Assembly: GCA_021307325.1 (NCBI GenBank)
Contig: CP089931.1
Coordinates: 1,574,979 to 1,638,978, forward strand
Direction of reading: 5' to 3'
DNA length: 64,000 nucleotides
Source: Peptoniphilus sp. GNH
Lineage (GTDB): Bacteria > Bacillota > Clostridia > Tissierellales > Peptoniphilaceae
The notes beneath the pieces were generated by a model. The model saw only the letters and a list, made by a program, of their open reading frames with translations, was not told where the DNA came from and made no database searches. Of the stretch, positions 3,217 to 58,263 are shown one piece after another. How positions within the stretch are numbered: the first letter of the stretch is position 1; each line of letters begins with the position of its first letter. The translations under genes and the position numbers were made by a program.

Positions 3217-3248
3217 CGATAAATTAAATAGTTTAAAATTATATTAGT

Positions 3249-3283
3249 AAACGGCAGAGGATATACTCCTTCTGCCGTTTTTT
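3249..3283 (+). terminator. Rho-independent terminator after SLH gene 1
   Basis: A stem AACGGCAGA/TCTGCCGTT is followed by a T run. It also lies just beyond the stop of the leftward M20 gene, so it may serve both strands. Confidence 0.85.
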
Positions 3284-3293
3284 AACTTAAAAC

Positions 3294-4442
3294 TTATTTG
3301 ACCATATTTAGGTGAAGATCGCATGCAGCCAAGAGGGCTCTTTCATCTATGTCAAAGAGCTGATGATGGTGAGGGTAGGCTGTTGTTTTTCCTGATTGGG
3401 AACCTACTCTTACAAAGACTGACTTCACCACTTGTGAATAGTCGGCGAAGTCTTCAGCTCCTAGTGATGGCTTGCCATTTGAAATTATGTTTTCGAAAGA
3501 AAAGATTTCAGAAGCTTTTGTCCTTGCGAGGTCAGCCATATCTTTGTCATTTACAAGCACAGATGCGGCATCGTAATTTGTAAAAGTTATTTTACAATCG
3601 TGAATTTCTCCTATAAGGCGGGCTAGGTTTTCTATTCTTTTCAAAAAATCCTTTCTCAAATCTTCGTCAAGACATCTGAGAGTGCCTTCGAGAAAGCCAG
3701 AGTCGGCTACTACATTATATCTTGTGCCTGCAGAAATTTTACCAACAGAGATTACACAAGCTTCTTGGGGATCTTTTTTTCTAGAAACCAGATTTTGTAG
3801 CTCGGTAAGGATATTTGCCAAGCAAAGTGCGGCGTCTTTTCCCAAGTGGGGAGAAGCGGCATGAGCTGCCTCTCCATAAACTTGTACTTTAAAGATGTCG
3901 CAAGAAGCATAAGAAGGGCCGTCCAAGATTTCACACTTGCCGAGTAAAATATCAGATGCTAAGTGGATGCCAAAGGCAAAATCCACATCCTTTAGATGGC
4001 CATCTCTTACAAAGATCCTAGCTCCGGCACCGATTTCTTCAGCTGCTTGAAAGGCTAGCTTTATTTTTCCTTTATACTTACTTTTATTTGCTGCTATTAT
4101 TTTTGCTGCGCCCAAAAGAGCGGCCGTATGACCATCATGACCACAGGCGTGAGCGAGCCCCTTGTTTTTTGATGAATAGGGGCAAGTTTTCTTATCTTCC
4201 AACTCCAGGGCATCCATATCAGCTCTTAAAAAAGCTGTGGGGCCTGGATTTTTTGTGTCAATTTCTGCTAGAAGTCCAGTTTCTCCGACTCTTATAGGTC
4301 TTAGACCCATTCCAGTTAATTCTTTTTCTACAAAATCTGCAGTCTTGTATTCTTTGAGGCTGGGTTCGGGATTTTCGTGCAAAAATCTCCTCGCGCCTAT
4401 TATATAGTCCTTTATCTCTAAGACTTCTTTACTATTTATCAT
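3294..4442 (-). CDS. M20D-family amidohydrolase (N-acyl amino acid / amidohydrolase type)
   Basis: A 382-aa protein of the M20D peptidase family (hippurate/IAA-amino-acid hydrolase type), a cytosolic dinuclear metal enzyme that removes acyl groups from N-acylated amino acids. Visible metal-binding motifs are ACGHDGH near residue 98 and AAEEIGAGA near 133. The dimerisation-domain pattern AHAASPH and a late GAEDFADY motif (metal ligand) also fit, and the length is normal. Its ATG overlaps the stop of metQ (TAATG), so it is the last gene of the methionine transporter operon under the T-box leader. The context suggests release of methionine from N-acyl- or N-formyl-methionine, but that substrate is an inference; the family is broad. 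Confidence 0.85.
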   Translation of the reverse strand: MINSKEVLEIKDYIIGARRFLHENPEPSLKEYKTADFVEKELTGMGLRPIRVGETGLLAEIDTKNPGPTAFLRADMDALELEDKKTCPYSSKNKGLAHACGHDGHTAALLGAAKIIAANKSKYKGKIKLAFQAAEEIGAGARIFVRDGHLKDVDFAFGIHLASDILLGKCEILDGPSYASCDIFKVQVYGEAAHAASPHLGKDAALCLANILTELQNLVSRKKDPQEACVISVGKISAGTRYNVVADSGFLEGTLRCLDEDLRKDFLKRIENLARLIGEIHDCKITFTNYDAASVLVNDKDMADLARTKASEIFSFENIISNGKPSLGAEDFADYSQVVKSVFVRVGSQSGKTTAYPHHHQLFDIDERALLAACDLHLNMVK

Positions 4443-5293
4443 TATTTTAAGTCTCCATCCCAGGCTGGTATAGATGCTCCCTTAGATGTTTCTTCTATAA
4501 CTTTCTTAGTGTCATCTGCTTGATAAGCCTTTACTATTTTTTTATAAATTTCATTGTCCTTGTCTTCTGGTCTTGCGACTATGATATTTATATAGGGCTT
4601 AGAATTTTCGTCAACAGGTTCCAAGAAAATGGAATCTTTTACTGGGTCAAAGCCTGCATCGACAGCGTAACCGTTGTTTATGCAAGAAGCTGCCACATCT
4701 TGAAGGTTTCTAGCAGTTTGGGAAGCATCCACAGTTATGATGTCTAGATTCTTTGGATTTTCTTTTATATCCTTGCTGGTTACAAGTTGTCCCGGCTTAG
4801 AATCTAGCTTTATAAGGTCTGCAGATTGCAAAAGTACCAAAGCCCTTGATTGGTTTGTAGGATCGACCGGTATAGCTATTTGAGCCTTGTCTGGTATTTG
4901 GTCTACGCTGTCATATTTTTGTGAAAATATTCCAAGTGGAGCCAAAACTGTGTCGCCAATTGATACGAGGTTGGCCTTCTTTTCTTGATTGAATTTGTCG
5001 AGGAAGGCTTGATGTTGAAAAGAGTTCAAATCAATTTCCTTATCGACCAAGGCAACATTTGGTTGATTGTAATCTGAGAATTCTACAAATTCTATCTTGA
5101 TACCTTCTTTTTCCAATTTGGATTTTACAAAATCCCACACATCGTGGTTAGCGCCCACTAGACCGATTTTTACACTAGTAGACTCATTAGCTTCAGATGT
5201 TTTTTTGTCAGCATTTTGTTTTGCTCCAGAACATCCCACCAGGCCAAGAGCCAATACACCAATTCCTACCAAGTTAAACAATTTCTTTTTCAT
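4442..5293 (-). CDS. metQ: Methionine ABC transporter substrate-binding lipoprotein
   Basis: A 283-aa lipoprotein of the NlpA/MetQ family. The signal ends in the lipobox LGLVGC, so the mature protein starts with a lipidated Cys on the outer face of the membrane. The body (VKIGLVGANHDVWDFVKSKL; PVDPTNQSRALVLLQ; DAGFDPVKDSIF) is typical of MetQ, which binds L- or D-methionine and delivers it to MetI/MetN. The start has GGAGG 7-8 nt upstream. It sits 11 nt after metI and overlaps the M20 gene. Substrate specificity follows from family plus the operon's methionine-type T-box. Confidence 0.92.
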   Translation of the reverse strand: MKKKLFNLVGIGVLALGLVGCSGAKQNADKKTSEANESTSVKIGLVGANHDVWDFVKSKLEKEGIKIEFVEFSDYNQPNVALVDKEIDLNSFQHQAFLDKFNQEKKANLVSIGDTVLAPLGIFSQKYDSVDQIPDKAQIAIPVDPTNQSRALVLLQSADLIKLDSKPGQLVTSKDIKENPKNLDIITVDASQTARNLQDVAASCINNGYAVDAGFDPVKDSIFLEPVDENSKPYINIIVARPEDKDNEIYKKIVKAYQADDTKKVIEETSKGASIPAWDGDLK

Positions 5294-5304
5294 TTTTTTT
5301 CCTC

Positions 5305-5970
5305 CTATTTTTCTACTTTTTTAATTAATATATTTGACACACCTTGAATGATAAAGACAATAATTAAAATAATTATAAGACACACCAAGGTGACATCATC
5401 TTGAAATCTTCCATAGCCTACATTTATGGCTATTTGTCCTAGGCCGCCAGCTCCGATCGCACCTGCCATGGCGGTAAGACCCACCAAGGAGATGAGAGTC
5501 AGGGAAGAAGCCCTTATAATATTTGCAAGTCCTTCTTTTAGATAGACTCGCAGAATTATATCAGCATTTGAATCGCCCATAGAAAGGGCGGCTTCTATCA
5601 CACCCTTATCCACATCTGCCAAAGCGGATTCTACCTGCTTGGCAAAAAAAGGAAAGGCTGCGAAAAAAAGAGGGACTATGGCCGCTCTTTGCCCTATACT
5701 TGTGCCTGCTATAAGCCTCGTAAGAGGAGCTATAAAGGTAAGCATTATTATAAAAGGCACGGACCTTAAAAGGTTTATTAGCTTATCCAAGAACGAATTT
5801 AAAAATTTGTTTTCTAAAATCGCACCGGGCCTTGTAGTTACTAGAATGACCCCCAAGATAAGACCTACAAGGCCTGCAAATATTGCAGTAAAAAAGGTCA
5901 TGTAGAGGGTGGATATACTTGCGCTTAAAAAATCATCTTTTATAGCCAAAGCATTTGCAAAATAATTCAT
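5305..5970 (-). CDS. metI: Methionine ABC transporter permease
   Basis: A 221-aa integral membrane protein with about five transmembrane helices and the binding-protein-dependent permease EAA loop (VESALADVDKGVIEAALSMG around residue 110-130). It ends in a short basic tail. It pairs with MetN and MetQ to import methionine. The start overlaps the metN stop by 4 nt, which indicates translational coupling. Length and motif layout are those of MetI. Confidence 0.92.
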   Translation of the reverse strand: MNYFANALAIKDDFLSASISTLYMTFFTAIFAGLVGLILGVILVTTRPGAILENKFLNSFLDKLINLLRSVPFIIMLTFIAPLTRLIAGTSIGQRAAIVPLFFAAFPFFAKQVESALADVDKGVIEAALSMGDSNADIILRVYLKEGLANIIRASSLTLISLVGLTAMAGAIGAGGLGQIAINVGYGRFQDDVTLVCLIIILIIVFIIQGVSNILIKKVEK

Positions 5971-7013
5971 ATAAACACCTCACTTAAATTTATATTAGAA
6001 AGTCTTACTCCTTCTTTTTCTAGAAAATGGAAGGCCGACTTGAGATTTTCTTCATCACCCTTTATTTTCACTATTAGAGTGCCCAAGGGGATATTTGAAA
6101 TAAATTCTATATTGCCCCAGAGAATGGAAGTCTTGACCTTGAATCGCTCGTATATTTCGACAATAAGAGGCTTTGTAGTTGAAGTGCCAAGATAGGATAG
6201 CTCCAAAATTCTCTCATCATCTTTAAGGGAAATAAGCTCCTTGTTGGCCCTTAAACTTTCCAGAACAGAGTCCAAATTGTTGGCGGTTTTTATAAATTCT
6301 TGGGTCAATTTTTGTTTAGGTTTAGAAAATATTTCAATAGCAGTGCCGACTTCTATGACTTTTCCATTTTCCATGACAGCCAATTTGTTGCAAATTTCTT
6401 TTACCACTTGCATTTCGTGAGTGATAATTACAATGGTGATGCCCAGTTTTTTGTTCAAATCCTTTAGCAAATTTAGAATCTGCAAAGTGGTTTGAGGGTC
6501 TAGGGCAGAGGTTGCTTCATCACAAAGTAGGATGTCAGGGTCGTTGGCAAGGGCTCTTGCTATGGCAACTCTTTGCTTTTGACCACCAGATAGTTCGCCG
6601 GGATAGGCCCCTTGTTTATCGACAATGCCGACAAGACTTAGGAGGTCTTTAGCTTTTTCTATCTTTTCTTTTTTTGAAAGCTTTGAGTGCTTTAGGGGAT
6701 AGATTACATTATCCAGTATCGTTCTACTCTTCATGAGATTAAAATGCTGAAAAATCATACCTATCTTTCTTCTCTTAGACCTCAAGTCTTTTGCCGACAT
6801 AGAAAGCAAATCTTTGCCATTCACAAGCACCCTGCCCTCATCTGGTCTTTGAAGAAGATTTATACATCTTACAAGAGTTGACTTTCCTGCACCAGAAAAT
6901 CCAACTATGCCGAATATATCCTTGTCCTCAATTTTTAAATTCACTCCATCAACAGCTTTTATAAGCTTATCTTTTTGTTTGAAACTAACTCTTATATTTT
7001 CAAGTTCTATCAA
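5967..7013 (-). CDS. metN: Methionine ABC transporter ATP-binding protein with NIL domain
   Basis: A 348-aa ATPase. It has Walker A GFSGAGKST, signature LSGGQKQR, Walker B ILLCDEATS and the switch His (ITHEM). A C-terminal ~80-residue NIL/ACT-like domain (from about residue 270) in this family binds cytosolic methionine and inhibits transport. I choose TTG 7013 as start because GGAGGT (7026-7021) sits 7 nt upstream. The first in-frame ATG (7034) lies directly against the T run of the leader terminator and has no ribosome site. It is the first gene of the T-box-controlled operon. Confidence 0.92.
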   Translation of the reverse strand: MIELENIRVSFKQKDKLIKAVDGVNLKIEDKDIFGIVGFSGAGKSTLVRCINLLQRPDEGRVLVNGKDLLSMSAKDLRSKRRKIGMIFQHFNLMKSRTILDNVIYPLKHSKLSKKEKIEKAKDLLSLVGIVDKQGAYPGELSGGQKQRVAIARALANDPDILLCDEATSALDPQTTLQILNLLKDLNKKLGITIVIITHEMQVVKEICNKLAVMENGKVIEVGTAIEIFSKPKQKLTQEFIKTANNLDSVLESLRANKELISLKDDERILELSYLGTSTTKPLIVEIYERFKVKTSILWGNIEFISNIPLGTLIVKIKGDEENLKSAFHFLEKEGVRLSNINLSEVFI

Positions 7014-7034
7014 ATTCACTACCTCCATAAACAT

Positions 7035-7293
7035 AAAAAAACGTCCTTCTTATCTAAAAAAGATAAAAAGGACGAAAAATTCCGCGTTACCACCTTATTT
7101 GCCTAAAAAATAGACCACCTTCAGGTACCATCATACCCTAACTCTGTAACGGGAGTTCCCGTATGAATCTAAATATCGACTCATCCCATCAAGGACCATG
7201 TTCAGTCACTCTTCTTTTGGCCACTCTCACCAATATGGCTTCTCTGTAAAAATATCATTGACTTACTCTTCCTCTTGTTTGGTTTTGCTGATG
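7035..7293 (-). promoter_or_regulatory. T-box riboswitch leader (probably methionine-specific) upstream of metNIQ
   Basis: On the minus strand, the T-box core AAGGTGGTAACGCGGA (within 7081-7100) is followed by a long intrinsic terminator. Its stem CGTCCTT...AAGGACG spans 7042-7074 and a run of Ts ends at the metN start region. The 5' half contains the stem I material expected of a T-box. In GAACATGGTCC the triplet ATG (7199-7197) is in a plausible specifier position, matching tRNA-Met and the downstream methionine transporter. Uncharged tRNA binding would favour the antiterminator and transcription of metN-metI-metQ-M20. T-box identity is strong; the specifier assignment is inferred. Confidence 0.85.
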
Positions 7294-7299
7294 AATGAT

Positions 7300-7328
7300 A
7301 TTTTACGAGAGGTGAAAAAGAATGTCAA
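7300..7328 (-). promoter_or_regulatory. Sigma-A promoter of the T-box/metNIQ operon
   Basis: TTGACA (7328-7323), a 17-nt spacer and TAAAAT (7305-7300) on the minus strand place transcription start just upstream of the T-box leader. Confidence 0.8.
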
Positions 7329-7399
7329 GGGTTAAATTAAAAAAATTTTAAAATATTAATGAATACTGTATAATAAGATAAACAAAAGGAGAGATGCAT

Positions 7400-8770
7400 A
7401 TGAAAAGATATATAAGAGAGGGAGTAGAAGCCCTAAAGGGGATTTCTTTCCAAATGCCTGGTCACAAACAGAGAAAATTTGAAGATGATTTTGATTTTAT
7501 AAAACACGATGTAACTGAAACATGGACAACTGACAACTTATTAAATCCGCAAGGCTGTATTAGAGAGTCCGAAAGAGAAATGGAGAGGATTTTTGAAACT
7601 AAAAGATCCTACTACATGGTCAATGGTTCATCAGGCTCTTTAATCTGCGCCATAGCTGCAGCAACAAAGCCTGGCGACAGAATTTTGGTACAAAGAAATT
7701 GTCACAAGTCGGTTTTTAATGCAGCTGTAATAGCAAGACTAAAGCTTTCCTATTTTCACGCCAACTATGACAAGAAGGAGAACCTTATAACAGATGCGGA
7801 CCCTAAGGTCATAGAAAAGGCCCTTGAAGAAAATGGGGACATAAGCTGTGTTGTGATAACTAGTCCAAATTATTTTGGAGTGACAAGCAGAGTAAAAGAG
7901 ATAGCAGATATTGTGCATGCTCATGGAGCTGTATTAATAGTTGATGAAGCTCATGGCCCCCACCTTCCCTTTTCAGCATATAGAGAAAAGTCTGCCCTAT
8001 TCCAAGATGCAGACCTTGTAATTCATTCTCCCCACAAGACTCTGCCTGCCTTGACTCAGACGTCACTTTTACACCTTGTAAGCAATCGAATTGATGAAAA
8101 AAGGCTTATGAAGACCATAATACTTTTCACAACGACATCCCCTTCTTATATCTTCACACAAAATATGGAAGGCGCTCTTGATTTTATGGAAACAAGGGGC
8201 GGGGAACTTTTGAGTGCGAATGAAGGCTATATAAAAGAGATGGAGGACAAGTTAAAAGGCAAGGTGATTTTTTACAAGCCTTCAAATGGAGTTTTCAAAG
8301 AGCCCATGAAGGTGCTGTTTAGGATTCCCGGGCTTACAGGCTTTGAGATTGTAAGGAGTTTGTATTTCGACTATAATATAAGGGTAGAAATGGCAGATTT
8401 TTACTATGTTCTTGCCATTGCCACAGTCATGAATACAAAAGAGGACTATGAAATCTTGACAAGGGCCTTGGCAGAAATTTCAGAAAAGGCCAGAAAAGAG
8501 ATAGACCTGCCCAAGTTTGAAGAAAAAAATCCTGAAAAGAAAATGGAAGCTTATGAAGCTTTTCATAAAAAATCTCTTCGCTTGCCTTATGAAAAGACAG
8601 AGGGCAGAGTTGCGGCGTCAATTGTCGCACCATATCCGCCGGGAGTTCCGATTCTTATACCTGGTGAGCTTGTAGATCGTGAAATTATTGAAACTCTAGG
8701 AGAATATTTAAAATATGGAGCCCATATTGTGGGAATAGAAGATGGCATGATGGAGGTAATAGATGAATAG
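7400..8770 (+). CDS. Orn/Lys/Arg decarboxylase-family PLP enzyme (YaaO type)
   Basis: A 456-aa fold-type I PLP enzyme of the Orn/Lys/Arg decarboxylase major-domain family, short form. Visible features are the substrate/PLP region GSSGSLICAIAA, the aspartate strand VDEAHGPHLPF, and the PLP-lysine motif HSPHKTLPALTQTS around residue 210. A C-terminal domain ends with VAPYPPGVPILIPGE. It would decarboxylate a basic amino acid to a polyamine or diamine; which one is unclear. ATG 7400 is preferred to ATG 7394 because AGGAG is then 8 nt away. It heads the tmk-holB operon, the same order as B. subtilis yaaO. A TATAAT at 7369-7374 is the likely -10. Confidence 0.88.
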   Translation: MKRYIREGVEALKGISFQMPGHKQRKFEDDFDFIKHDVTETWTTDNLLNPQGCIRESEREMERIFETKRSYYMVNGSSGSLICAIAAATKPGDRILVQRNCHKSVFNAAVIARLKLSYFHANYDKKENLITDADPKVIEKALEENGDISCVVITSPNYFGVTSRVKEIADIVHAHGAVLIVDEAHGPHLPFSAYREKSALFQDADLVIHSPHKTLPALTQTSLLHLVSNRIDEKRLMKTIILFTTTSPSYIFTQNMEGALDFMETRGGELLSANEGYIKEMEDKLKGKVIFYKPSNGVFKEPMKVLFRIPGLTGFEIVRSLYFDYNIRVEMADFYYVLAIATVMNTKEDYEILTRALAEISEKARKEIDLPKFEEKNPEKKMEAYEAFHKKSLRLPYEKTEGRVAASIVAPYPPGVPILIPGELVDREIIETLGEYLKYGAHIVGIEDGMMEVIDE

Positions 8771-31151: not shown

Positions 31152-33521
31152 ATGAACAAAAGAATTCTTTCTCTAGTACTAGCACTAGTAATGGTACTAG
31201 GAACATTCGGATCTGTCTTCGCCGCTGAAGCAAAAGCAGAAGTTAAGGAAAAGACAAAAGAAGTTCCAAAATTAACTTCATCAGACGCTAAGATTCAATG
31301 GCTACAAGACGTAAAAATCGTTGAAGGTCGTAAAGTAAACGAAGACGAAAAGAACAACGATCTAGCACTTGACAAGACAATCCAAAGAGCAGAAGTAACA
31401 AAACTTTTAGTTTACGCTATTGGTAAACAAGACCTAGCAGAACAACTAAAAGGAGCAGTAAGACCATTCAAAGATGTAGAAGCAGGATACTGGGCTAACG
31501 GATTTATCACAGTTGGTTCAACTTCTCCATCTCCAGCAAATGGACTTCCATTCCTAAACGGATACCCAAGTGGCAAATTCGAAGGAAAATGGAACGTATC
31601 TTATGCAGAACTTGCAAAGATGCTTGTAGTGCTTGCAAAGAAAGACCTTACTAAGGATCTTCTAGTAAAAGCAAACGCTGACTGGCCATCACAATGGATG
31701 AGATATGCAGCAGAAATGGGCATTCTTGAAGGCGTAACAGTTGCAAACTCAAACGACAATGCAACAAGAAAAGACGCATTCACAATGATTTACAATGCAA
31801 TGTTTGCAATGAAAGAATGGAGACTTTACCCATCAAATGAAACTATCGGCGTAATCTCTAAGGCTACAAACGACAAGATCACTCTTGGTGGAATCGAAAA
31901 AGACGTTGAATTCAAAGTAAACGAAAAGACTAACTTCGTTCCTGCAGAAGCTAAGGATGCAACTACACCTTACCACCCAATCGGATGGATGACTTATGTA
32001 ACTTACGGATCAGGATACTATATCGGATCTCTAGTAAGAGTACTTGCAGACAAAGATGGTAATGTAACTCACATTATCCAACTTGGTAACCCAGAACACC
32101 TTGACCTTAAGACTCAAGGATGGGCACCAATAGCTGATGATCATGACAACGGAACAGTTGATCTTAGAAAAGCTAACCTAACTTTCAAAGAAGCTAAACT
32201 TGCTAAGATTGACACTGACTCTCATACTCGTTACTTTGTAGCAGATGTAAACAAGGGTAGAGTAAAAGAAGTTAAATCTATGTCAGATATCAGATCTTAC
32301 TTCAAATATGAAACTGAATTTGCTAATAGAGTATACCTAGGATTTGAAAAGGTAGAAGTATCAGGCAGAAGAATTGCAAGACTAGTTGTATTCAACCAAG
32401 TTGATAAGACAAACCTAAGAGGAGATCTTGTAAGAATTTCTAACCCTGTAATATCTAACTATTCAGTTCTTGCTCAAGAAGCTGGCGAAAAGGCTACTGA
32501 AGCAAAAGAATACAAACTTGGCGATTACAAGTACTATCCATATGCTTACAAGGCTGACAAGTACGATATCGTTAATCTAAATGGTTACAATGGAACAATT
32601 GAAACTGAAATTGACTATGATAAGACTCCAACTTTCAAAGTTGAAAAGATTTACACAAGAGGACAAAATGGTCTTCCATTTGTAAATGGTTACACAACAG
32701 CTATCAAGCTTTCTGATGGAAGAGGAGAACAAGTTTACGGTGTTGCAAGAGATATCGACACTTGGTTCGCAAACGAAATCAGAGAAGGCGCTTATGTACA
32801 AGTTAAATTTGGTGAAGCAAACAAGGAAATTACTCTAATTTCTGTAGTTCCAAAGAACAACGTTCCTGGAGATCTTCCAAACGGAATGGTTAAAGATGCT
32901 AAGACTGTTAAAGTTCTAAGTGTTGAAAAATTCAACGGAGTTAGTCTAGTAACTTATCTTGACGGAGCTTACAGAAATACTGTAGCTGTTACTGACAACG
33001 ACGTATTGAATGTTGCTCTTAATGATGAAATCAGAATTGAACCAGTATTCAGATATGTACAAGTTCAAAACTACTACGGAAAAGTTGAAAGCTTCGCAGT
33101 TTATAGAATAGCTCAAAACATCACTAAGGATACTAATGACGCAACAACAGCTGTAACAACTTTCGAAGGTGCTGTAAACGAAGCTAATCTTAATGCCGCT
33201 AAGGCAAAAGTAGCTGCACTTCCTGAAGGAACAACAAAAGCAGCTCTTGAAAAGAGAATTGAAGTTAAACTTGTTGCAGAAGCTAAGACTACAATTGGAA
33301 ATCCAGTTCAAATCACAGCTCCAGCAGCATTTACAGCAGAAGAACTTGTTAAAGCAGCAAATGCTAAACTTAATGCAACTGTAAACAAGCATTTTGCAGA
33401 TGTAAAGGTTTCAGCTTCTGAACTTACTGCTATCCCAGGAGAAGCAGACAAATACACTGCTAACATTACTTTAACTTATGGTAATGAATCAGTAGTTGTA
33501 CCTGTAAAGGTAGAAAGATAA
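31152..33521 (+). CDS. Abundant SLH-domain S-layer-type protein
   Basis: A 789-aa secreted protein with signal peptide MNKRILSLVLALVMVLGTFG, cleaved near VFA-A. Three SLH-like segments cover residues ~40-220 (for example RPFKDVEAGYWANGFITVG, LPFLNGYPSGKFEGKWNVSY, then MRYAAEMGILEGV). The central ~400 residues are beta-rich. The C-terminal ~130 residues (FEGAVNEANLNAAKAKVAAL) form a helical domain and an Ig-like end. The strong AAGGAGG site, long leader and smooth codon use suggest very high expression, so it is a candidate main S-layer protein. It is flanked by 179-bp direct repeats, so the cassette could be lost or exchanged by recombination. Confidence 0.85.
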   Translation: MNKRILSLVLALVMVLGTFGSVFAAEAKAEVKEKTKEVPKLTSSDAKIQWLQDVKIVEGRKVNEDEKNNDLALDKTIQRAEVTKLLVYAIGKQDLAEQLKGAVRPFKDVEAGYWANGFITVGSTSPSPANGLPFLNGYPSGKFEGKWNVSYAELAKMLVVLAKKDLTKDLLVKANADWPSQWMRYAAEMGILEGVTVANSNDNATRKDAFTMIYNAMFAMKEWRLYPSNETIGVISKATNDKITLGGIEKDVEFKVNEKTNFVPAEAKDATTPYHPIGWMTYVTYGSGYYIGSLVRVLADKDGNVTHIIQLGNPEHLDLKTQGWAPIADDHDNGTVDLRKANLTFKEAKLAKIDTDSHTRYFVADVNKGRVKEVKSMSDIRSYFKYETEFANRVYLGFEKVEVSGRRIARLVVFNQVDKTNLRGDLVRISNPVISNYSVLAQEAGEKATEAKEYKLGDYKYYPYAYKADKYDIVNLNGYNGTIETEIDYDKTPTFKVEKIYTRGQNGLPFVNGYTTAIKLSDGRGEQVYGVARDIDTWFANEIREGAYVQVKFGEANKEITLISVVPKNNVPGDLPNGMVKDAKTVKVLSVEKFNGVSLVTYLDGAYRNTVAVTDNDVLNVALNDEIRIEPVFRYVQVQNYYGKVESFAVYRIAQNITKDTNDATTAVTTFEGAVNEANLNAAKAKVAALPEGTTKAALEKRIEVKLVAEAKTTIGNPVQITAPAAFTAEELVKAANAKLNATVNKHFADVKVSASELTAIPGEADKYTANITLTYGNESVVVPVKVER

Positions 33522-41795: not shown

Positions 41796-41860
41796 TACAA
41801 TCAGACTAGAATTGTATCTTTGTATCAAAATCTCAACAAGGATAAGAAGGAGTGAAAGTT

Positions 41861-44800
41861 TTGAAAGAAAAATACGAAAAGAAAAAAGAAAAAATATTTG
41901 AAGCAAGAAGGCTATGGAGCATACTTCTGGCCCTTATTATGCTAATAGGAGTCTTTCCATTTTCAGCCTTTGCCCGATCATATTCAGGGATAGTAGATAT
42001 TAGAGACCGTTGGACTAAAGACCGATTGGAATTTAAAGGAAATCCGGACATAACATGTGTATTGATTAAAGATCCGGGTCCGCGAAGAGATCAATATGAA
42101 GATGGGGGACCTAAAACTATACTTACGATATGGGCAAAAAATGGCGATTATTATGATGAGGAAAGTTATGAATATAACAATTTAATAAGTCTTTATATTA
42201 ATCGAATTATCTTTGAATTTAAAGCAAGCCAAGGAGAGCTTCCCGATGCCCTAAAAAAGATAGCCCCCAAGCCTTATGGAATATATGTTAGGGAAAGTCC
42301 TAATGGTTGGGAAAAAGGACCTATGTATAGCCCAAAAGGGCCACAAGACCCCACCCCTACCAAATGGAAAGACCCTAGCAATGGAAATGAATGGAAATTT
42401 AAAGGTTGGGAACAAAACCCAAGGGATAAATGGTATTTAGGAAGAAGCCTCCCAAACTATAGCCCTGATGACCTACAGGAACGTTGGAATTATGTTCGTT
42501 TCGTCGGCACCTGGTATATGCTTTCGAAAAAGCAAGAGTTAGATAAAGCCATTAAAGCTGCAGACGCTTTAACCAAGGCAGATGTCATCGCCAATAATGG
42601 GGAGAATGTCCCTGTCTTTAGAACTTGGGTAACAAAAAGTGTCGATGAGACCCTTAAAAGCACTTTAAAGACGGCAAAAGAAAAGTTTAATAATGATGAA
42701 GTTTCCCAAGGTGAGGTGGATGCAGCTGCCAATGCCTTAAAGACCGCTGTAGCCGCTTACAAACCCCAAAAAGGGCAAAAGGTATACGACAAAAACCCAA
42801 CATATGCTCAACCACAAGATGCCCACAAGGTGACCTTTGCCAAGGGGAGTGGCGTGGACATGGAGGGAGAAAACACCTTCTTCTATGTAAAAAATGGCAC
42901 AAGCCTACCGGCAGGAGAATTCCCAAAAGCCACTGCCCAAAACGGATTCGGCACCAAAATTTATTGGACACCGGAACAAGACACAGCCATTACCAAAGAC
43001 GAAACCTTTACTGCCAGCGCCAAAGCCGTGAATAAGGCAGACCTTGCAGCGAAAATTCAAGAAGCGGAAGGCTTGCTTGAAAAAGACAAGACCTCCGATC
43101 CTGCCCTGGCATTAAAGACCAAGGTAGATGAAGCCAAGGCCGTGGTAGGAGCCATAGACAATGGCACACAACGAGATCAAGACCAAGTGGATGGCAAGGC
43201 CAATGAACTGACCCAAGCCATCCAAGCCTTAAAAGACTTAAATAGCAAAAAAGAAGAAACAAAAAACGCCATCGCAGGCATCGAGGGCTTAAAACAAGGT
43301 GACATCACCGCCCTTCAAGGAGAGGTAGACAGCGCCAAAAACGCAGATGCAGTTGAAGCCGTCAAAGCAAAAGCGACGGCTCAAGGAAAAGCCAATAAGG
43401 CACTAGAAGAAGCAACAGCAGCAGTAGGAGCAGCAGAACAAGCAAAGACACAAGAAAAATATGGTGAAGCCAAGGCAAAAGTAGACGCTCTAGAAAATGG
43501 ACAAGCAAAAACAGATCTAGAAAATCGCTTAGCAGAAGTAGACAAATACATCAAAGCAGACAAAGCTATCAAAGACCTTGCAGGCAAAAATATAGCAGAC
43601 GTAACACCAAGCGACATAAGCAGCGCAGAAGATCTAATAAAAGCAGTAAAACAAGACTGGAAACAAAGCCTAACAGAACGTCTAAACACCATAAAAACAA
43701 ATAAAACAGCCTACGAAAAACTAACAGAAGCAACAGCATTGGTAGAAGCAGCAGAACAAGCAAAGACACAAGACAAATACGACCAAGCCAAGGCAAAAGT
43801 CGAAGCCCTAACACAAGGTCAAGACAAAACAAAATTACAAAATCGTCTAGCAGAAGTAGACAAATACATCAAAGCAGACAATAAATTAAAAGAAATTGAA
43901 GGCAAGAGCATAGCAGGAGTAAGTAACGACGACATAAGCAGTGCAGAAGGTCTAATAAACGCAGTAAAAGAAGACTGGCAACAAAGCCTAACAGAACGTC
44001 TAAACACCATAAAAACAAATAAAACAGCCTACGAAAAACTAACAGAAGCAACAGCATTGGTAGTAGCAGCAGAAAATGCCAAGACACAAGAAAAATACGA
44101 CCAAGCCAAGGCAAAAGTAGACGCTCTAGAAAATGGACAAGCCAAAACAGATCTAGAAAATCGCTTAGCAGAAGTAGACAAATACATCAAGGCAGACAAT
44201 AAATTAAAAGAAATCGAAGGCAAGAGCATAGAAGGAGTAACTAACGACGACATAAGCAATGCAGAAGGTCTAATAAATACAGTAAAACAAGACTGGAAAC
44301 AAAGCCTAACAGATCGTCTAAACACCATAAAAGAAAAAGTGGCAGAAGCAGCAGTTACCGCCCTTGAAGGCAAAAAAGGAAACGTAACAGACAAAGAAAT
44401 ACAAGCTGCTCAAGAAAAAATAGACAAGGTAACAGACAACAACAAGAAAACTGCCCTAGAAGGACGTCTAGACCAAGTAAAAGAAGCGAAAAAGGCAAAA
44501 GAAAAAGAAGATAAGGCCCAAGGCGAAGCTCAAAAAGCTCTAGATAAACTAACAGGCGATGGCATCACAGACGAAAACATCAAAAAGGCTCAAGACGAAA
44601 TAAATAAAGTTACAGATCCTAGCAAAAAACAAGAACTTCAAGAAAAACTAAATCAAATCATAGCAGAAAAAGCAGTAAAAGAGCTTGAAGACAAAAAAGG
44701 AAACGTAACAGACGGAGAAATAACAAAAGCCAAAGAAAAAATAAACAAAGTCACCGATGAAGGAAAGAAAAATGACTTAAATCGTCGCATAGGTGAAGTG

Positions 44801-47800
44801 GAAAAAGCCAAGGGACTACAAGACGAAGCAGAAAAAGCAGTCTCCGATCTTGAAAAACCAAATGCCAATGTCACCGATGATGCAATACAAGAAGCCAAAG
44901 AAAAAATAGACAAGGTAACTAACGCAGACAAAAAACAAAACTTGAATGATCGCCTTGAAAAAGTAAAAACAGACAAAAAAGAAAAAGACGCTCAAGGCGA
45001 AGCCCAAAAAGCTCTAGACAAACTAACAGGCGATGGCATCACAGACGAAAACATCAAAAAGGCTCAAGAAGAAATAGATAAAGTTACAGATCCTAACAAA
45101 AAGCAAGAACTGCAAGAAAAACTAAATCAAATCATAGCAGAAAAAGCAGTAAAAGAGCTTGAAGACAAAAAAGGAAACGTAACAGACGGAGAAATACAAG
45201 CTGCTCAAGCAAAGGTAGAAAAGGTAACAGACACCGGCAAGAAAACTGAACTGAATAATCGTCTAGACAAGGTTAAAAAACTAAACGAAGCAAAAACCGA
45301 AGCAGAAAAAGCCATAAACAAATTAGAAAAGCTAGACACTACAGAAAAAGATGGCTTCAAGACAAGGGTAAAAGACGCAAGCACAATTGATGATGTAGAC
45401 AAGATAGTTCTAGAAGCTCAAAAAGAAAATGCCAAGAAAAAAATTGATGACATGAACAACTTATCAAAAGAAGATAAGAAAAAAGCAAAAGAAGGCATCG
45501 AAAATGCAGGCGATAAAGATGAAATAGACACAAAAGTATCGGATGCACAAAATAAAGACAATAAAGAAGCGGCAAAAAAACTAGAATCAGCAAAAAGAAA
45601 AGCGGAAGAAACCATAAATAACTTGGACAAGCTAAGCCCGACAGAAAAAGATGGTTTCAAAAAGAAGGTAACAGATGCCAACACTATTGATGATGTCAAT
45701 AAAGTGGTCCTAGATGCAGCAAAAGAAAACGCCAAGAAAAAAATAGCTGAAATGGATAAGTTAACACCAAAAGAGAAAAAAGATTTTAATAAATCCATAG
45801 AAGAATCATCAAATGCAAGCGACATAGAAGACGTAGTAAACAGAGCTCAGGGACAACAAAATCAAAGGCTGGGAGCAGAAGTTCAAGAAGCAACAAGTTT
45901 AGTTGAAAAAGCGGAAGAAACAAAAACGGAAGCCAACTACAATACAGCCAAGACAGCAGTAGACAAGCTAGGAGATAGCAAGGAAAAAACAAATCTACAA
46001 AACCGTCTAGCAGAAGTAGAAAAATACATCCAAGCAGACAAGGAATTAAAAGTCCTAGAAGGAAAAGACGTAGCAAGTCTAACACCAAGTGATATAAGCA
46101 AGGTAGAAGACTTAATAGGAAAGGTAAAAGATGCTTGGAAGCAAGACCTTACAAACCGTCTAGACCAAGTAAAACAAAAGATACAAGCAAAAGAACAACT
46201 GGAAAAAGATAAAAAAGCAGCAAAGGCTAAGGTGGAGGCACTAGACAAGCTAGACCGAAATGAAAAAGACGCCTACGAAGGAAGAATAGACGGGGCAGCA
46301 GACAAGGCTCAAGTAGATGGCATAGTCCTTGAAGCTCAAAAAGAAAATGCTAAAAAGAAAATAGCTGAGATGGACAAGCTAACACCAACAGAGAAAGAAA
46401 ATGCCAATAATGCAATAGACCAGTCACAAAATGAAGACGGAGTAAATACGGTAGTAGACAATGCCCAAGCAGATCAAGATCAAAGACGAAGCCTAGAAGA
46501 AAAAAAGGTGCAAGCAAAGGCTAAGGTAGAAGCACTAAAAGAGTTAAACCAAGATGAAAAATCACCCTTCATAGCAAGAATAGAAGGGGCGCAAAACGAA
46601 AACGACATCAATAGTGCAGTTCTAGACGCTCAAAAAGCAAATGCTAAAAAGAAAATAGCCGCTATGGACAAGCTAGAAGACGGAGAACGTCAAGCAGCAG
46701 ATGAAGCAATAAATCAAGCCCAAGATGAAAATGCAATAAATGCAGCAGTAGAAGATGCCAATACAAAGCAAACTGAAAGAAAAAGTCTAATAGAATACAA
46801 AGACGAAGCAAAACGAAAAATAGAAGCCCTAGACAAGCTAGACCAAAACAAAAAAGATGACTACGAAAGAAGAGTAGACGGGGCAGCAGACAAGGCACAA
46901 GTAGATGGCATAGTTCTAGAAGCACAAAAAGAAAACGCCAAGAAAAAAATCTCAGACCTCAACAACCTAAGTCCAGAACAAAGACAAGAAGCAGAAAGAA
47001 ACATAGACAATGCGAGAAACGAAAACGAAATAACAAACATTGTAGCAGAAGCTTCAGGAAGAAATCAAAACGCACAAGAAAACTCTGTAAACAATAGCTA
47101 CTCAAGACAACTTCAATTTGGCATAATAATAAGACCGGCAAAAGAAGAAGAAAAGAAAGTAGAAAAGACAGAAGAAAAGAAGGTCGAATTAAGACACAAA
47201 GAAGCCTACATCAAAGGATATCCAGACGGAAGCTTCAGACCAAATGGAAAAATAACAAGAGCAGAAGCAGCCTCAATGATAGCAAAACTAGCAGGACTAG
47301 ACCTAAGCAATAGCAAAAACCCAGGTCTAAAAGACACCAAAGATGCATGGTACAACTCAGCGATAAACGCCATGATAAAGAAAAACCTCATGGAAACAGA
47401 CGAAAATGGAAACTTCAGACCAGACGAAGCCATAACAAGAGCAGAATTCGCAAGAGCCCTCTTCTATCTAGACAAAGACAACAAAAAAACAACTAACATG
47501 AAAGACATAAGAGGACACAAGTATCAAGAAGCCATAGAAAGAGCCTATGCAAACGGCCACATCAAAGGCTACCCAGACGGAAGCTTTAGACCAGATGCAG
47601 CCATAACAAGAGCAGAAGCAGTAAAAATCTTAAATCACTTCGACAAAAGAAAAGTTAAGGAAAATAGCTTAGGAAAAGTAAAGAGTGAAATAAAAGGCTT
47701 CACAGACTTAAAAGAAAGCCATTGGGCTTACTTTGAAATACTTGTAGCAAGCACATCCTACTCCTATCTATACGATCTAGAAGGATATGCTCTAATATCT

Positions 47801-47815
47801 AATATAGACAGATAG
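41861..47815 (+). CDS. Giant SLH-anchored surface protein with FIVAR, helical and GA-type albumin-binding repeats
   Basis: A 1984-aa exported protein. TTG 41861 has AGGAG 8 nt upstream. A long basic N-region then LLALIMLIGVFPFSAFA forms the signal. Residues ~40-225 are a unique globular domain. FIVAR modules lie at ~230-305 and ~395-465, and a Listeria/Bacteroides-type beta repeat between. About 95-105-aa helical repeats with LAEVDKYIKAD start near 43430, 43745, 44045 and 45895. About 70-aa repeats with GNVTDGEI lie at 44340-45280, and GA modules (AEKAINKLEKLDTTEKDGF type, also EAQKENAKKKI) at 45290-47060. Three SLH domains (GYPDGSFRPNGKITRAEA) lie at 47200-47650. GA modules in Finegoldia/Streptococcus bind serum albumin; binding here is inferred. 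The gene's DNA repeats make slippage or recombination likely. Confidence 0.9.
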   Translation: MKEKYEKKKEKIFEARRLWSILLALIMLIGVFPFSAFARSYSGIVDIRDRWTKDRLEFKGNPDITCVLIKDPGPRRDQYEDGGPKTILTIWAKNGDYYDEESYEYNNLISLYINRIIFEFKASQGELPDALKKIAPKPYGIYVRESPNGWEKGPMYSPKGPQDPTPTKWKDPSNGNEWKFKGWEQNPRDKWYLGRSLPNYSPDDLQERWNYVRFVGTWYMLSKKQELDKAIKAADALTKADVIANNGENVPVFRTWVTKSVDETLKSTLKTAKEKFNNDEVSQGEVDAAANALKTAVAAYKPQKGQKVYDKNPTYAQPQDAHKVTFAKGSGVDMEGENTFFYVKNGTSLPAGEFPKATAQNGFGTKIYWTPEQDTAITKDETFTASAKAVNKADLAAKIQEAEGLLEKDKTSDPALALKTKVDEAKAVVGAIDNGTQRDQDQVDGKANELTQAIQALKDLNSKKEETKNAIAGIEGLKQGDITALQGEVDSAKNADAVEAVKAKATAQGKANKALEEATAAVGAAEQAKTQEKYGEAKAKVDALENGQAKTDLENRLAEVDKYIKADKAIKDLAGKNIADVTPSDISSAEDLIKAVKQDWKQSLTERLNTIKTNKTAYEKLTEATALVEAAEQAKTQDKYDQAKAKVEALTQGQDKTKLQNRLAEVDKYIKADNKLKEIEGKSIAGVSNDDISSAEGLINAVKEDWQQSLTERLNTIKTNKTAYEKLTEATALVVAAENAKTQEKYDQAKAKVDALENGQAKTDLENRLAEVDKYIKADNKLKEIEGKSIEGVTNDDISNAEGLINTVKQDWKQSLTDRLNTIKEKVAEAAVTALEGKKGNVTDKEIQAAQEKIDKVTDNNKKTALEGRLDQVKEAKKAKEKEDKAQGEAQKALDKLTGDGITDENIKKAQDEINKVTDPSKKQELQEKLNQIIAEKAVKELEDKKGNVTDGEITKAKEKINKVTDEGKKNDLNRRIGEVEKAKGLQDEAEKAVSDLEKPNANVTDDAIQEAKEKIDKVTNADKKQNLNDRLEKVKTDKKEKDAQGEAQKALDKLTGDGITDENIKKAQEEIDKVTDPNKKQELQEKLNQIIAEKAVKELEDKKGNVTDGEIQAAQAKVEKVTDTGKKTELNNRLDKVKKLNEAKTEAEKAINKLEKLDTTEKDGFKTRVKDASTIDDVDKIVLEAQKENAKKKIDDMNNLSKEDKKKAKEGIENAGDKDEIDTKVSDAQNKDNKEAAKKLESAKRKAEETINNLDKLSPTEKDGFKKKVTDANTIDDVNKVVLDAAKENAKKKIAEMDKLTPKEKKDFNKSIEESSNASDIEDVVNRAQGQQNQRLGAEVQEATSLVEKAEETKTEANYNTAKTAVDKLGDSKEKTNLQNRLAEVEKYIQADKELKVLEGKDVASLTPSDISKVEDLIGKVKDAWKQDLTNRLDQVKQKIQAKEQLEKDKKAAKAKVEALDKLDRNEKDAYEGRIDGAADKAQVDGIVLEAQKENAKKKIAEMDKLTPTEKENANNAIDQSQNEDGVNTVVDNAQADQDQRRSLEEKKVQAKAKVEALKELNQDEKSPFIARIEGAQNENDINSAVLDAQKANAKKKIAAMDKLEDGERQAADEAINQAQDENAINAAVEDANTKQTERKSLIEYKDEAKRKIEALDKLDQNKKDDYERRVDGAADKAQVDGIVLEAQKENAKKKISDLNNLSPEQRQEAERNIDNARNENEITNIVAEASGRNQNAQENSVNNSYSRQLQFGIIIRPAKEEEKKVEKTEEKKVELRHKEAYIKGYPDGSFRPNGKITRAEAASMIAKLAGLDLSNSKNPGLKDTKDAWYNSAINAMIKKNLMETDENGNFRPDEAITRAEFARALFYLDKDNKKTTNMKDIRGHKYQEAIERAYANGHIKGYPDGSFRPDAAITRAEAVKILNHFDKRKVKENSLGKVKSEIKGFTDLKESHWAYFEILVASTSYSYLYDLEGYALISNIDR

Positions 47816-55301: not shown

Positions 55302-55445
55302 ATCATAAGTCCTCCTTTATTTAAATCAATCTCTTATCTGGATTTTACCCCCAATGAAAAGTTTCTGCAATGGACTTATTTTTTAAAACAAAAAAGACTG
55401 GAGAAATATATCTTCAGTCTTTTTAACTTCAAAAAGTTTTCAAAT

Positions 55446-57521
55446 TCAAATATTGTATTCCTTCATATTTTCAAGCGCAATTGATACGGTTGATGAATTG
55501 TGAAGAAGGGATGAAGTTGTGTTTGAAATCACTTGGAAATAACCAAGGGCAATTAGTAGAGAGTTAAAGGAGATTATTTGATTGTAATCAGATTTTATTC
55601 TCTTTTGCAGGCCCTTTGCAATTTTAACAAGTTTTACAATTGATTTTAGATCATCTGAGCCTATTGCTATATCGGCAATTTCTCTTGCTATGTCTGCTCC
55701 CTTGTGCATTGCTATACCAACATCAGCACCAGAAAGAGCCACAGAGTCGTTTATTCCATCGCCTATCATTACGACTTTTCTGCCAAGGGCTTTTTGCTCT
55801 CTGACATAAGCTGCCTTATCTTCGGGCAGAACTTGCGACTTGTAGTAGTCTAAATTCAATTGCTTTGCAACATAGGAAGCGGAGTTCTCTGCATCACCTG
55901 TTAGCATAGCTATATTGGTAAAGCCGAGTTCTCTTAGCTCGTCTATGGTTTCTTTTGCATCTTCTCTTATGGGGTCGCTTATACATAAAACTGCTATGAG
56001 CTTTTTGTTGTAGGCCAGATAGAGAAGGGAATAATTTTCCTTTAGACTTTCAACAAGAGCTTCTTTCTTGGCGGATATTTTTACTCCTTCATCTTCAAAG
56101 ATGAAGTGGGCAGATCCTATAAGGGCAGTCTTGCCGTCAATCTTGGAAGAAATCCCATGAGCTACGATATATTCTGTTTCCGAGTGCATTTCTTCGTGTT
56201 TCAAATTCTTTTTGATTGCAGCATCCACAACCGCATTGGCTATGGAGTGAGGGAAGTGTTCTTCCAAGCAGGCTGCAATTCTCAAACATTCATCTTCTGA
56301 ATGACCATCAAAGGCGATTATTTTTTCTACACTTGGTGTAGATTTTGTAAGAGTACCGGTCTTGTCAAATACAATAGTGTCGGCTAGAGCGAGATTTTCT
56401 AGATATCTGCCGCCCTTTACCAAGATGTCATTTTGACCAGCTTGGCTCATAGCCTTCATAACTGCTATTGGAATGGTAAGTTTCAAAGCGCAAGAGAAAT
56501 CCACCATTAAAAAGGCCTTAGCTCTATTTATAGACCTTGTGAAGAGATAGGAGAGGGCAGCGCCTATGAAGGAGTACTTCACTAGGGAGTCGGCCATATT
56601 TTCCGCCTTCTTCTGTGCCAAGGACTTATTCTTTTCGTTTTCTCCAATTAATTTTATTATATTGTTGATCCTAGAGTCGTCATGAAGCTTTTCGGTTTCG
56701 ATAAGAAGCATGCCTTCTTCCAAAACTGTACCGGCAAATACACTCTTGCCTTCTTCTTTCTTTACTGGGATGCTTTCGCCTGTAAAGGAAGATTGGTTTA
56801 CCATGCCTACGCCTTTTACAACCTTGCCGTCTACTGGGATTGTAGTACCCATGCTGACTTCGACAATGTCTCCAATTTGTACATCTCTAAGATTCTTAAT
56901 TACTTTTTCTTTGCCTTCTAGGACAAAGACCTTATCTACATTTAGTTCTAAGGTTCTGGCTAGATCGCCTTGAGACTTTTTAAGTGTCCAATCTTCAAGA
57001 CTTTCGCCCAAGTCTAGTAGGAACATTATAGAAGAAGCTGCGCCAAAATCATTTGTAGCCAAAGATACGCCTATGGCTGTGGCATCAAGCACCTCTACGT
57101 TTAGTTTCCTATTGTAAAGAGACACAAGACCCTTTTTAATAAATCTGGCCGCCCTCAAAAGTATGACGATGCTGCCGAATGGAGCAGGGATGAAATTTTT
57201 CATCACAAATCTCACTTCGAAAGCATCTCTTATTATGTGAAAGAGTTCCTTTTCTTCAAGCGGTATATATGACTTGTCTTCGATTTCAAATGTATCCAAA
57301 TAGGAAGGGTCGAAATCTAAAATAAATCTACATACTCTGCCAAGAGCTTCCTCATCATAATTTACAATAATACTGCCTGTAATTGTGGACACCTTGGCAT
57401 AACTTACTCCGTCTATTTTTTCCAACAAGTATTTGAGCTTGTTGGCACGAGAGTAAGAGAAGATATGATCACAGGAAAACCTGATTCTACCAAGAGTCCT
57501 ATGAGAAATTTTTGCCTTCAT
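55446..57521 (-). CDS. P1B-6-like heavy-metal P-type ATPase (FezB-like)
   Basis: A 691-aa transport ATPase. Residues ~1-75 resemble an HMA2-type domain (LEKIDGVSYAKVSTITGSII). The core has the actuator GES, phosphorylation site DKTGTLTKS near residue 385, HP motif (EHFPHSIANAV) and the hinge GDGINDSVALSGADVG. In place of the CPC metal motif there is SCALK near residue 343. An SCA motif marks subclass P1B-6, whose members include FezB of ferrosome (iron granule) clusters. It starts 3 nt after the DUF6110 gene with no strong site of its own. Iron as substrate is an inference from subclass, Fur-like motifs upstream and partner gene. Confidence 0.82.
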   Translation of the reverse strand: MKAKISHRTLGRIRFSCDHIFSYSRANKLKYLLEKIDGVSYAKVSTITGSIIVNYDEEALGRVCRFILDFDPSYLDTFEIEDKSYIPLEEKELFHIIRDAFEVRFVMKNFIPAPFGSIVILLRAARFIKKGLVSLYNRKLNVEVLDATAIGVSLATNDFGAASSIMFLLDLGESLEDWTLKKSQGDLARTLELNVDKVFVLEGKEKVIKNLRDVQIGDIVEVSMGTTIPVDGKVVKGVGMVNQSSFTGESIPVKKEEGKSVFAGTVLEEGMLLIETEKLHDDSRINNIIKLIGENEKNKSLAQKKAENMADSLVKYSFIGAALSYLFTRSINRAKAFLMVDFSCALKLTIPIAVMKAMSQAGQNDILVKGGRYLENLALADTIVFDKTGTLTKSTPSVEKIIAFDGHSEDECLRIAACLEEHFPHSIANAVVDAAIKKNLKHEEMHSETEYIVAHGISSKIDGKTALIGSAHFIFEDEGVKISAKKEALVESLKENYSLLYLAYNKKLIAVLCISDPIREDAKETIDELRELGFTNIAMLTGDAENSASYVAKQLNLDYYKSQVLPEDKAAYVREQKALGRKVVMIGDGINDSVALSGADVGIAMHKGADIAREIADIAIGSDDLKSIVKLVKIAKGLQKRIKSDYNQIISFNSLLIALGYFQVISNTTSSLLHNSSTVSIALENMKEYNI

Positions 57522-57524
57522 AGA

Positions 57525-57794
57525 TTATAGAATTTCTTCTTCGGCTAGATTTTCTACTGATTCTTCTGCTACTTTAGCCTTAGCTTCTTCAGCTTTTTTA
57601 ACTTTAGCTTCTGCAACGATGTCTTCAGCATTTTCTTTTACTTTTTCTATTGTCTTGTCAATGCCTTCTTTTACCTTTAAGCCGCCAGCTACAGTAGATA
57701 CTGCAAGTTTCTTTACTGCATTTGATTTAATTATTTGTTCTCCTAAAAATCCTAATACAACACCTGCACCAATACCTAATAATCTTTTTTTCAT
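57525..57794 (-). CDS. DUF6110 family small membrane protein
   Basis: An 89-aa protein. A glycine-rich hydrophobic N-terminus (LLGIGAGVVLGFLGEQIIKS) is followed by a family-typical KKLAVSTVAGGLKVKEGIDK and a long charged helix with KVKENAEDIVAEAK. ATG 57794 is preferred because GAGGTGAAAA lies upstream; the longer start lacks a site. DUF6110 genes are commonly found next to P1B-type ATPases in clostridia. Small glycine-rich membrane proteins of fez clusters are thought to shape the ferrosome membrane, so this is a candidate FezA-type partner (inference). Confidence 0.75.
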   Translation of the reverse strand: MKKRLLGIGAGVVLGFLGEQIIKSNAVKKLAVSTVAGGLKVKEGIDKTIEKVKENAEDIVAEAKVKKAEEAKAKVAEESVENLAEEEIL

Positions 57795-57858
57795 TTTTTT
57801 CACCTCATAAATTTTTTTAAGTAGTAACACTACGTTTTCTATAGACTATATTAGCACT

Positions 57859-58038
57859 ATCATTATCATTTATCAATAAGTATTTTGAAAAAAATTAAAA
57901 AAATTTTTAATTTTTTAAAATTTGGCTGAATTTCAAATATTCTATCGAATGATTTATCTTGATATACGAGTAATACCGAGGGAACTTATTGATAATCATT
58001 AGTGAAATTTAATCGGCATAAGTGATAAATGATAACGA
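57859..58038. promoter_or_regulatory. Fur-like GATAAT motifs upstream of the P1B-6 operon
   Basis: TGATAAATGATAATGATAG on the minus strand (57877-57859) is echoed by TGATAAATGATAACGAGA on the plus strand (58023-58040). Between them is TTGATAATCATTAG (57999-58012), whose TGATAAT half fits the 7-1-7 Fur box. The 57795-58263 gap has no gene; it also holds the flippase terminator and a small ATGCCT/AGGCAT hairpin. Confidence 0.55.
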
Positions 58039-58203
58039 GATGCCTATAAGCCTAAAGGCATTATTGGAGAAAGTCTCTTCAACTAATAGTCTACATCATT
58101 TACATGAAAATTAAAACAATTATCAATTTTTAAAAGGTCTTATAAAAATACAAAATAAATTTAAAATATTAAAAATTTTAAAATATCAATTTTTGCAAAT
58201 AAA

Positions 58204-58254
58204 AATCCTTTCGAGTAGATTCTAATTTTACTTAGCTTCTATTCGAAAGGACAG
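58204..58254 (-). terminator. Terminator of the glycosyltransferase-deacetylase-flippase operon
   Basis: TCCTTTCGA-TAGA pairs with TCTA-TCGAAAGGA on the minus strand, then TTTTTATTTG. Confidence 0.8.
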
Positions 58255-58263
58255 GATTGAGTT

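Follow-up and report, generated by a model that had tools for sequence, protein, structure and literature searches.

Does the pair of adjoining genes that encodes a small membrane protein and a P-type ATPase in Peptoniphilus sp. GNH constitute a ferrosome locus of the kind known from Clostridioides? In C. difficile, ferrosomes require both FezA and FezB, and both are repressed by Fur (PMC12574912). The two proteins are encoded by the pair CD630_05910-05920 (PMC11651100); low iron and mutation of fur each raise the expression of both genes, and CD630_05920 has a Fur box (PMC6311696). The original prediction had proposed a compact two-gene fez locus in the window, by which we mean the whole stretch of 64,000 nucleotides analysed here.

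The features of the locus are given in Table 1. The two genes are separated by 3 bases, and an intergenic region of 469 bases (57795-58263) lies upstream of the fezA-like gene; an in-frame GTG at 57830, upstream of the fezA-like start, would add 12 residues to the protein. The inverted repeat behind the ATPase gene is followed by a T-run and is probably a transcription terminator, although it was not among the output of the consensus scan. With this terminator-like repeat on the 3′ side and a promoter-like site upstream, the pair looks like a compact two-gene operon. Its neighbours encode a thioesterase, an LPG-synthase-TM protein, a polysaccharide deacetylase and an MGDG-synthase-type glycosyltransferase; no gene for FezC (a DUF4405-like cytochrome) was found among the neighbouring genes. 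A search for a fezX candidate gave no same-strand ORF of at least 40 aa between 57830 and 58264 and was equally empty at the Clostridioides fezA, where the fez strand holds no ORF of at least 35 aa in the preceding 1 kb (L058). Chance ORFs as a reading of the gene pair are ruled out by the Pfam matches and by recurrence of the pair in genomes of the host family.

Table 1. Positions (in the window) of the features of the fezAB-like locus.
Feature	Position	Strand	Details
fezA-like gene	57525..57794	-	89-aa DUF6110 protein
fezB-like gene	55446..57521	-	691-aa P1B-6 ATPase; HMA_2, SCA in TM4, DKTGT, HN..ST in TM6
SCA metal motif codons TCT TGC GCT	56487..56495	-	sequence; pattern place G000:C1:1631459-1631484
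HN pair, TM6 metal site	55497..55502	-	alignments; invariant in aligned relatives
Predicted promoter TTGATA-17-TAATAT, TG before -10	57848..57876	-	promoter scan; overlapped by Fur-like array
TATCATTATCATT within predicted promoter	57858-57870		13-mer
Fur-like elements	57985..58038	.	TGATAATCATTAGTG 57990-58004; TGATAAATGATAACGA 58023-58038
Inverted repeat AAAAAGACTG..CAGTCTTTTT	55391..55424	-	directly 3′ of fezB; read from sequence

The ATPase carries the Pfam domains E1-E2_ATPase, Hydrolase (HAD) and an N-terminal HMA_2, and scores 492 bits against TIGR01525. Its TM4 reads LMVDFSCALKLTIP, with SCA replacing CPC as first noted, and its TM6 reads LLHNSSTVS. An alignment of 24 relatives shows no variation at the cysteine of the TM4 motif or at H, N and T of TM6, and very little at the S and A of SCA; the SCA ATPase of G022 reads SCALR at the motif. 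As the original prediction had proposed, the protein was placed by a tree, here a quick one built with IQ-TREE from 83 P1B ATPases. In it, 44 sequences that carry SCA, or in the same context its variants CCA or SCV, group together with an SH-aLRT of 100, and the window ATPase lies with Clostridioides FezB inside a starred subclade of 31 rows within this SCA (P1B-6) clade. CopA, ZntA and CoaT, along with the host's three other P1B pumps, fall on the opposite side of a branch with support 100, and membership of P1B-1, P1B-2 or P1B-4 is rejected by this placement and by the absence of CPC or SPC from TM4. The SCA motif alone is not diagnostic, since an unrelated SCA motif (L147) is placed elsewhere in the tree.

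The small protein matches Pfam DUF6110 (PF19605) with an E-value of 1.4e-10 and 41.6 bits against a cut-off of 26. It has one N-terminal TM helix with a GxxxGxxG pattern (GVVLGFLG), followed by a charged helix rich in Ala, Glu and Lys, and it contains neither His nor Cys. The hydrophobic segment, GIGAGVVLGFLG, is rich in glycine, in agreement with its earlier description as a small glycine-rich membrane protein of the DUF6110 type. Profile searches of the host genome found a single DUF6110 gene and a single Fur, and four P1B ATPases scored over the family cut-off.

For comparison with Clostridioides we used genome G350, which appears to be C. difficile, or at least very closely related to it, because the only phage matches of its prophages are Clostridioides phages. 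Here the only DUF6110 gene precedes the only P1B pump of the SCA type, the other two clear P1B pumps being CPC. With this FezB the window ATPase shares 46% identity, and the small protein is 48% identical over 64 aa (BLASTP) to this FezA, which is itself a DUF6110 protein (E 1.2e-20); the suggested comparison with FezA-type proteins hence places both in one family. In both the window locus and fezAB of C. difficile (CD630_05910-05920), an SCA P1B-6 FezB directly follows a DUF6110 FezA, and Fur-like sites lie upstream. The window locus differs in the shorter tail of FezA (a protein of 89 aa against 133 aa in Clostridioides), in having no strong Fur box and no visible FezX, and in that the organism also retains a ferritin in the same 64-kb window. 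Fez clusters of the Desulfovibrio type likewise have FezB as the putative ferrous iron transporter of the ferrosome, but are multi-gene and include FezC, which is absent from the window.

Iron-related neighbours were counted by searching for FeoA, FeoB and ferritin within 5 kb of SCA loci and of control P1B loci with CPC or SPC. Such genes were found at 11 of 53 SCA loci and at 0 of 54 controls (Fisher P = 0.00025), the controls covering a broader taxonomic range and giving 0/29 when confined to Bacillota. In the window itself no Feo or ferritin gene adjoins the pair. The ferritin at 13.9 kb to which the original prediction referred is real (Pfam Ferritin E 3.8e-36), and since the genome carries both this ferritin and a Dps, a further iron store is not obviously needed.

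The intergenic region contains six copies of TGATAA/TTATCA (57795-58263) against 0.8 expected, and none of 1000 simulated sequences matched to its dinucleotide make-up scored as high. Furthermore, TGATAAATGATAACGA is an inverted copy of 57860-57875. The Fur-like motifs reported in this region are thus real and enriched, but they include no canonical strong box: the best 7-1-7 Fur box match upstream of the fezA-like gene is 11/14, which is within chance (P = 0.22). A better Fur-type box, TGATATAAATTATCA, can be read about 390 bases before the Clostridioides fezA, and a clear Fur-like box is absent upstream of the pair in most relatives in the family, where the host genus is represented by a single genome. 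The genome has just three copies of the 13-mer TATCATTATCATT: one in the fezA promoter, one in front of a Dps gene at a distance of 14 bases, and one in a mobile-element-like place. At other places in the genome, strong Fur-type boxes stand before Dps, before a gene with a weak match to the NEAT domain, before an ABC/AraC pair and before a DUF3793 gene. Fur control of the fezAB-like operon is plausible on this evidence, against which stand the lack of a strong canonical box and the absence of such repeats from most relatives.

Taken together, gene content and phylogeny point to a probable Clostridioides-type fezAB, in a new host. We put at roughly 70% the full reading of a putative Fur-repressed, ferrosome-forming two-gene operon with an Fe(II)-pumping FezB and a FezA scaffold. 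It draws on the position of the ATPase in one supported clade with the only SCA ATPase of the Clostridioides genome, on the adjacent homologue of Clostridioides FezA, on the enrichment of Feo and ferritin genes around SCA loci, on the published requirement, Fur repression and low-iron induction of fezAB in C. difficile, and on the 13-mer common to the dps promoter together with strong Fur boxes at the Dps, NEAT-like and ABC/AraC genes. Against it stand the missing canonical 7-1-7 box here and the scarcity of boxes in relatives, the lack of a FezC- or FezX-like neighbour, and the presence of ferritin and Dps. In the model, FezB would pump ferrous iron out of the cytoplasm across a membrane, presumably into vesicles, through a transport site formed by the TM4 cysteine and the His, Asn and Thr of TM6. 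FezA, as a small single-pass scaffold, would cluster FezB through its glycine-zipper helix and organise a membrane patch that may become an iron-phosphate granule, the ferrosome. The operon would probably be repressed by the single Fur of the genome and come on when iron is short.

The same two proteins could instead make up an efflux platform in the plasma membrane, comparable to the PacL-Ctp effluxosome of mycobacteria; FezA would cluster the pump, which would expel Fe(II), Zn(II) or another metal from the cell, and no organelle would form. The PacL-CtpC zinc effluxosome of M. tuberculosis resembles the window locus: its P1B pump also has HN in TM6, and the gene upstream encodes a small GxxG protein that crosses the membrane once. 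FezA and PacL (DUF1490) prove homologous by profile comparison (hhalign probability 92, E 5e-7), most of the FezA-like proteins tested match DUF1490, one of them above the Pfam cut-off, and the GxxG motif of PacL is present in 37 of 44 FezA-like proteins. DUF6110 proteins have been termed PacL-like (PMC13043812), and membrane platforms were proposed for DUF6110-P1B6 pairs by Boudehen et al. (PMC9374683), a paper from which the word ferrosome is absent. In PacL two glycines are required for cluster assembly and a C-terminal His/Asp tail binds metal (PMC13043812, PMC9374683); the window FezA has no such tail. CtpC is a zinc-exporting, P1B6-like pump with CPC, and CtpC-like CPC pumps, including a Mycobacteriaceae pump, form a separate clade outside the SCA clade. 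Direct membership of the PacL-Ctp effluxosomes is not borne out, the window protein reaching only 24 bits against DUF1490 (PF07371; cut-off 28.4) and its pump carrying SCA. Moreover, Fur-type promoter elements and the low-iron induction of the C. difficile homologue fit poorly with an efflux pump responsive to excess metal, and we consider this reading unlikely. Least probable is that the P1B pump handles a different metal and has nothing to do with ferrosomes, its Fur-like motifs having arisen from an AT-rich intergenic region: the chance-level 7-1-7 match, the indirect assignment of Fe(II) to FezB and an NCBIfam name that specifies only a general heavy-metal or cadmium-family ATPase would allow it, but the Feo/ferritin enrichment, the tree placement with FezB, the TGATAA excess and the 13-mer of the dps promoter speak against it.

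Under the fezAB reading the homology with PacL bears on what FezA does. From the lack of His and Cys, the glycine zipper, the relation to PacL and the retention of GxxG we infer that FezA is a scaffold rather than a metal chaperone. More tentatively, FezA and PacL might belong to a single superfamily of single-pass scaffolds with GxxG that accompanied P1B-6-type pumps, the same clustering principle giving an export patch in one branch and an iron organelle in the other, in which case the two-gene locus could be the minimal self-sufficient organelle-forming version. The homology connects two membrane assemblies that have been studied separately and suggests a testable rule, that a glycine-zipper helix clusters the pump. 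We found no paper that treats 'ferrosome' and 'DUF6110' together, so that the FezA-PacL link to ferrosomes is new relative to the literature searched; the primary ferrosome papers lay outside this search and may already report it.

DUF6110 was present in 10 of 37 genomes sampled in the host family (own genome included), and in all 10 family loci the gene lies directly before an SCA ATPase. Class-wide it occurs in 29 of 391 genomes, and 28 of 30 places adjoin such an ATPase by reading. Two DUF6110 genes have no adjoining ATPase, L028 (G094:C7) and L024 (G404:C20); G094 also has a paired copy. Named genomes that also carry the pair include those of Faecalibacterium prausnitzii, Blautia, Anaerotignum, Methanobrevibacter, Mailhella and Deinococcus. 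That DUF6110 is typically encoded with P1B6 pumps across Firmicutes, exactly the pairing in the window, was already noted by Boudehen et al. in 2022 (PMC9374683). The statement that no description was known may hence be true of the organism, but not of the gene pair. With both this pairing and C. difficile fezAB published, we are likely dealing with a new host for a known system. An anaerobe with a small genome is thereby added to the organisms that have a probable ferrosome locus, in a family where such pairs are patchily spread.

Whereas the other copies of the host family do not, those of two genomes, L011 (G028) and L012 (G016), group with Lachnospiraceae in the tree; this suggests horizontal transfer of fezAB in these genomes. 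An Anaerosolibacter locus (L116) has two adjacent P1B-like pumps (2277-4854 and 5091-7770), each after a small PacL-like protein; one has CPKPA replacing CPCAL and sits on a very long branch. SCA pumps that follow a small protein annotated as YtxH were seen on an Azospirillum plasmid (L200, 3721-7707), alongside HMA2-domain genes, and on an Arcobacter plasmid (L201, 2704-6773), alongside a DUF2202 gene; these are possible proteobacterial fez clusters.

Elsewhere in the window, the 789-aa product of 31152-33521 (+) matches no Pfam family at E 0.001. A 1987-aa protein with a GTG start (41852-47815, +) contains ten albumin-binding GA modules and, at its C-terminus, three SLH domains, and is probably a surface protein that binds host albumin.
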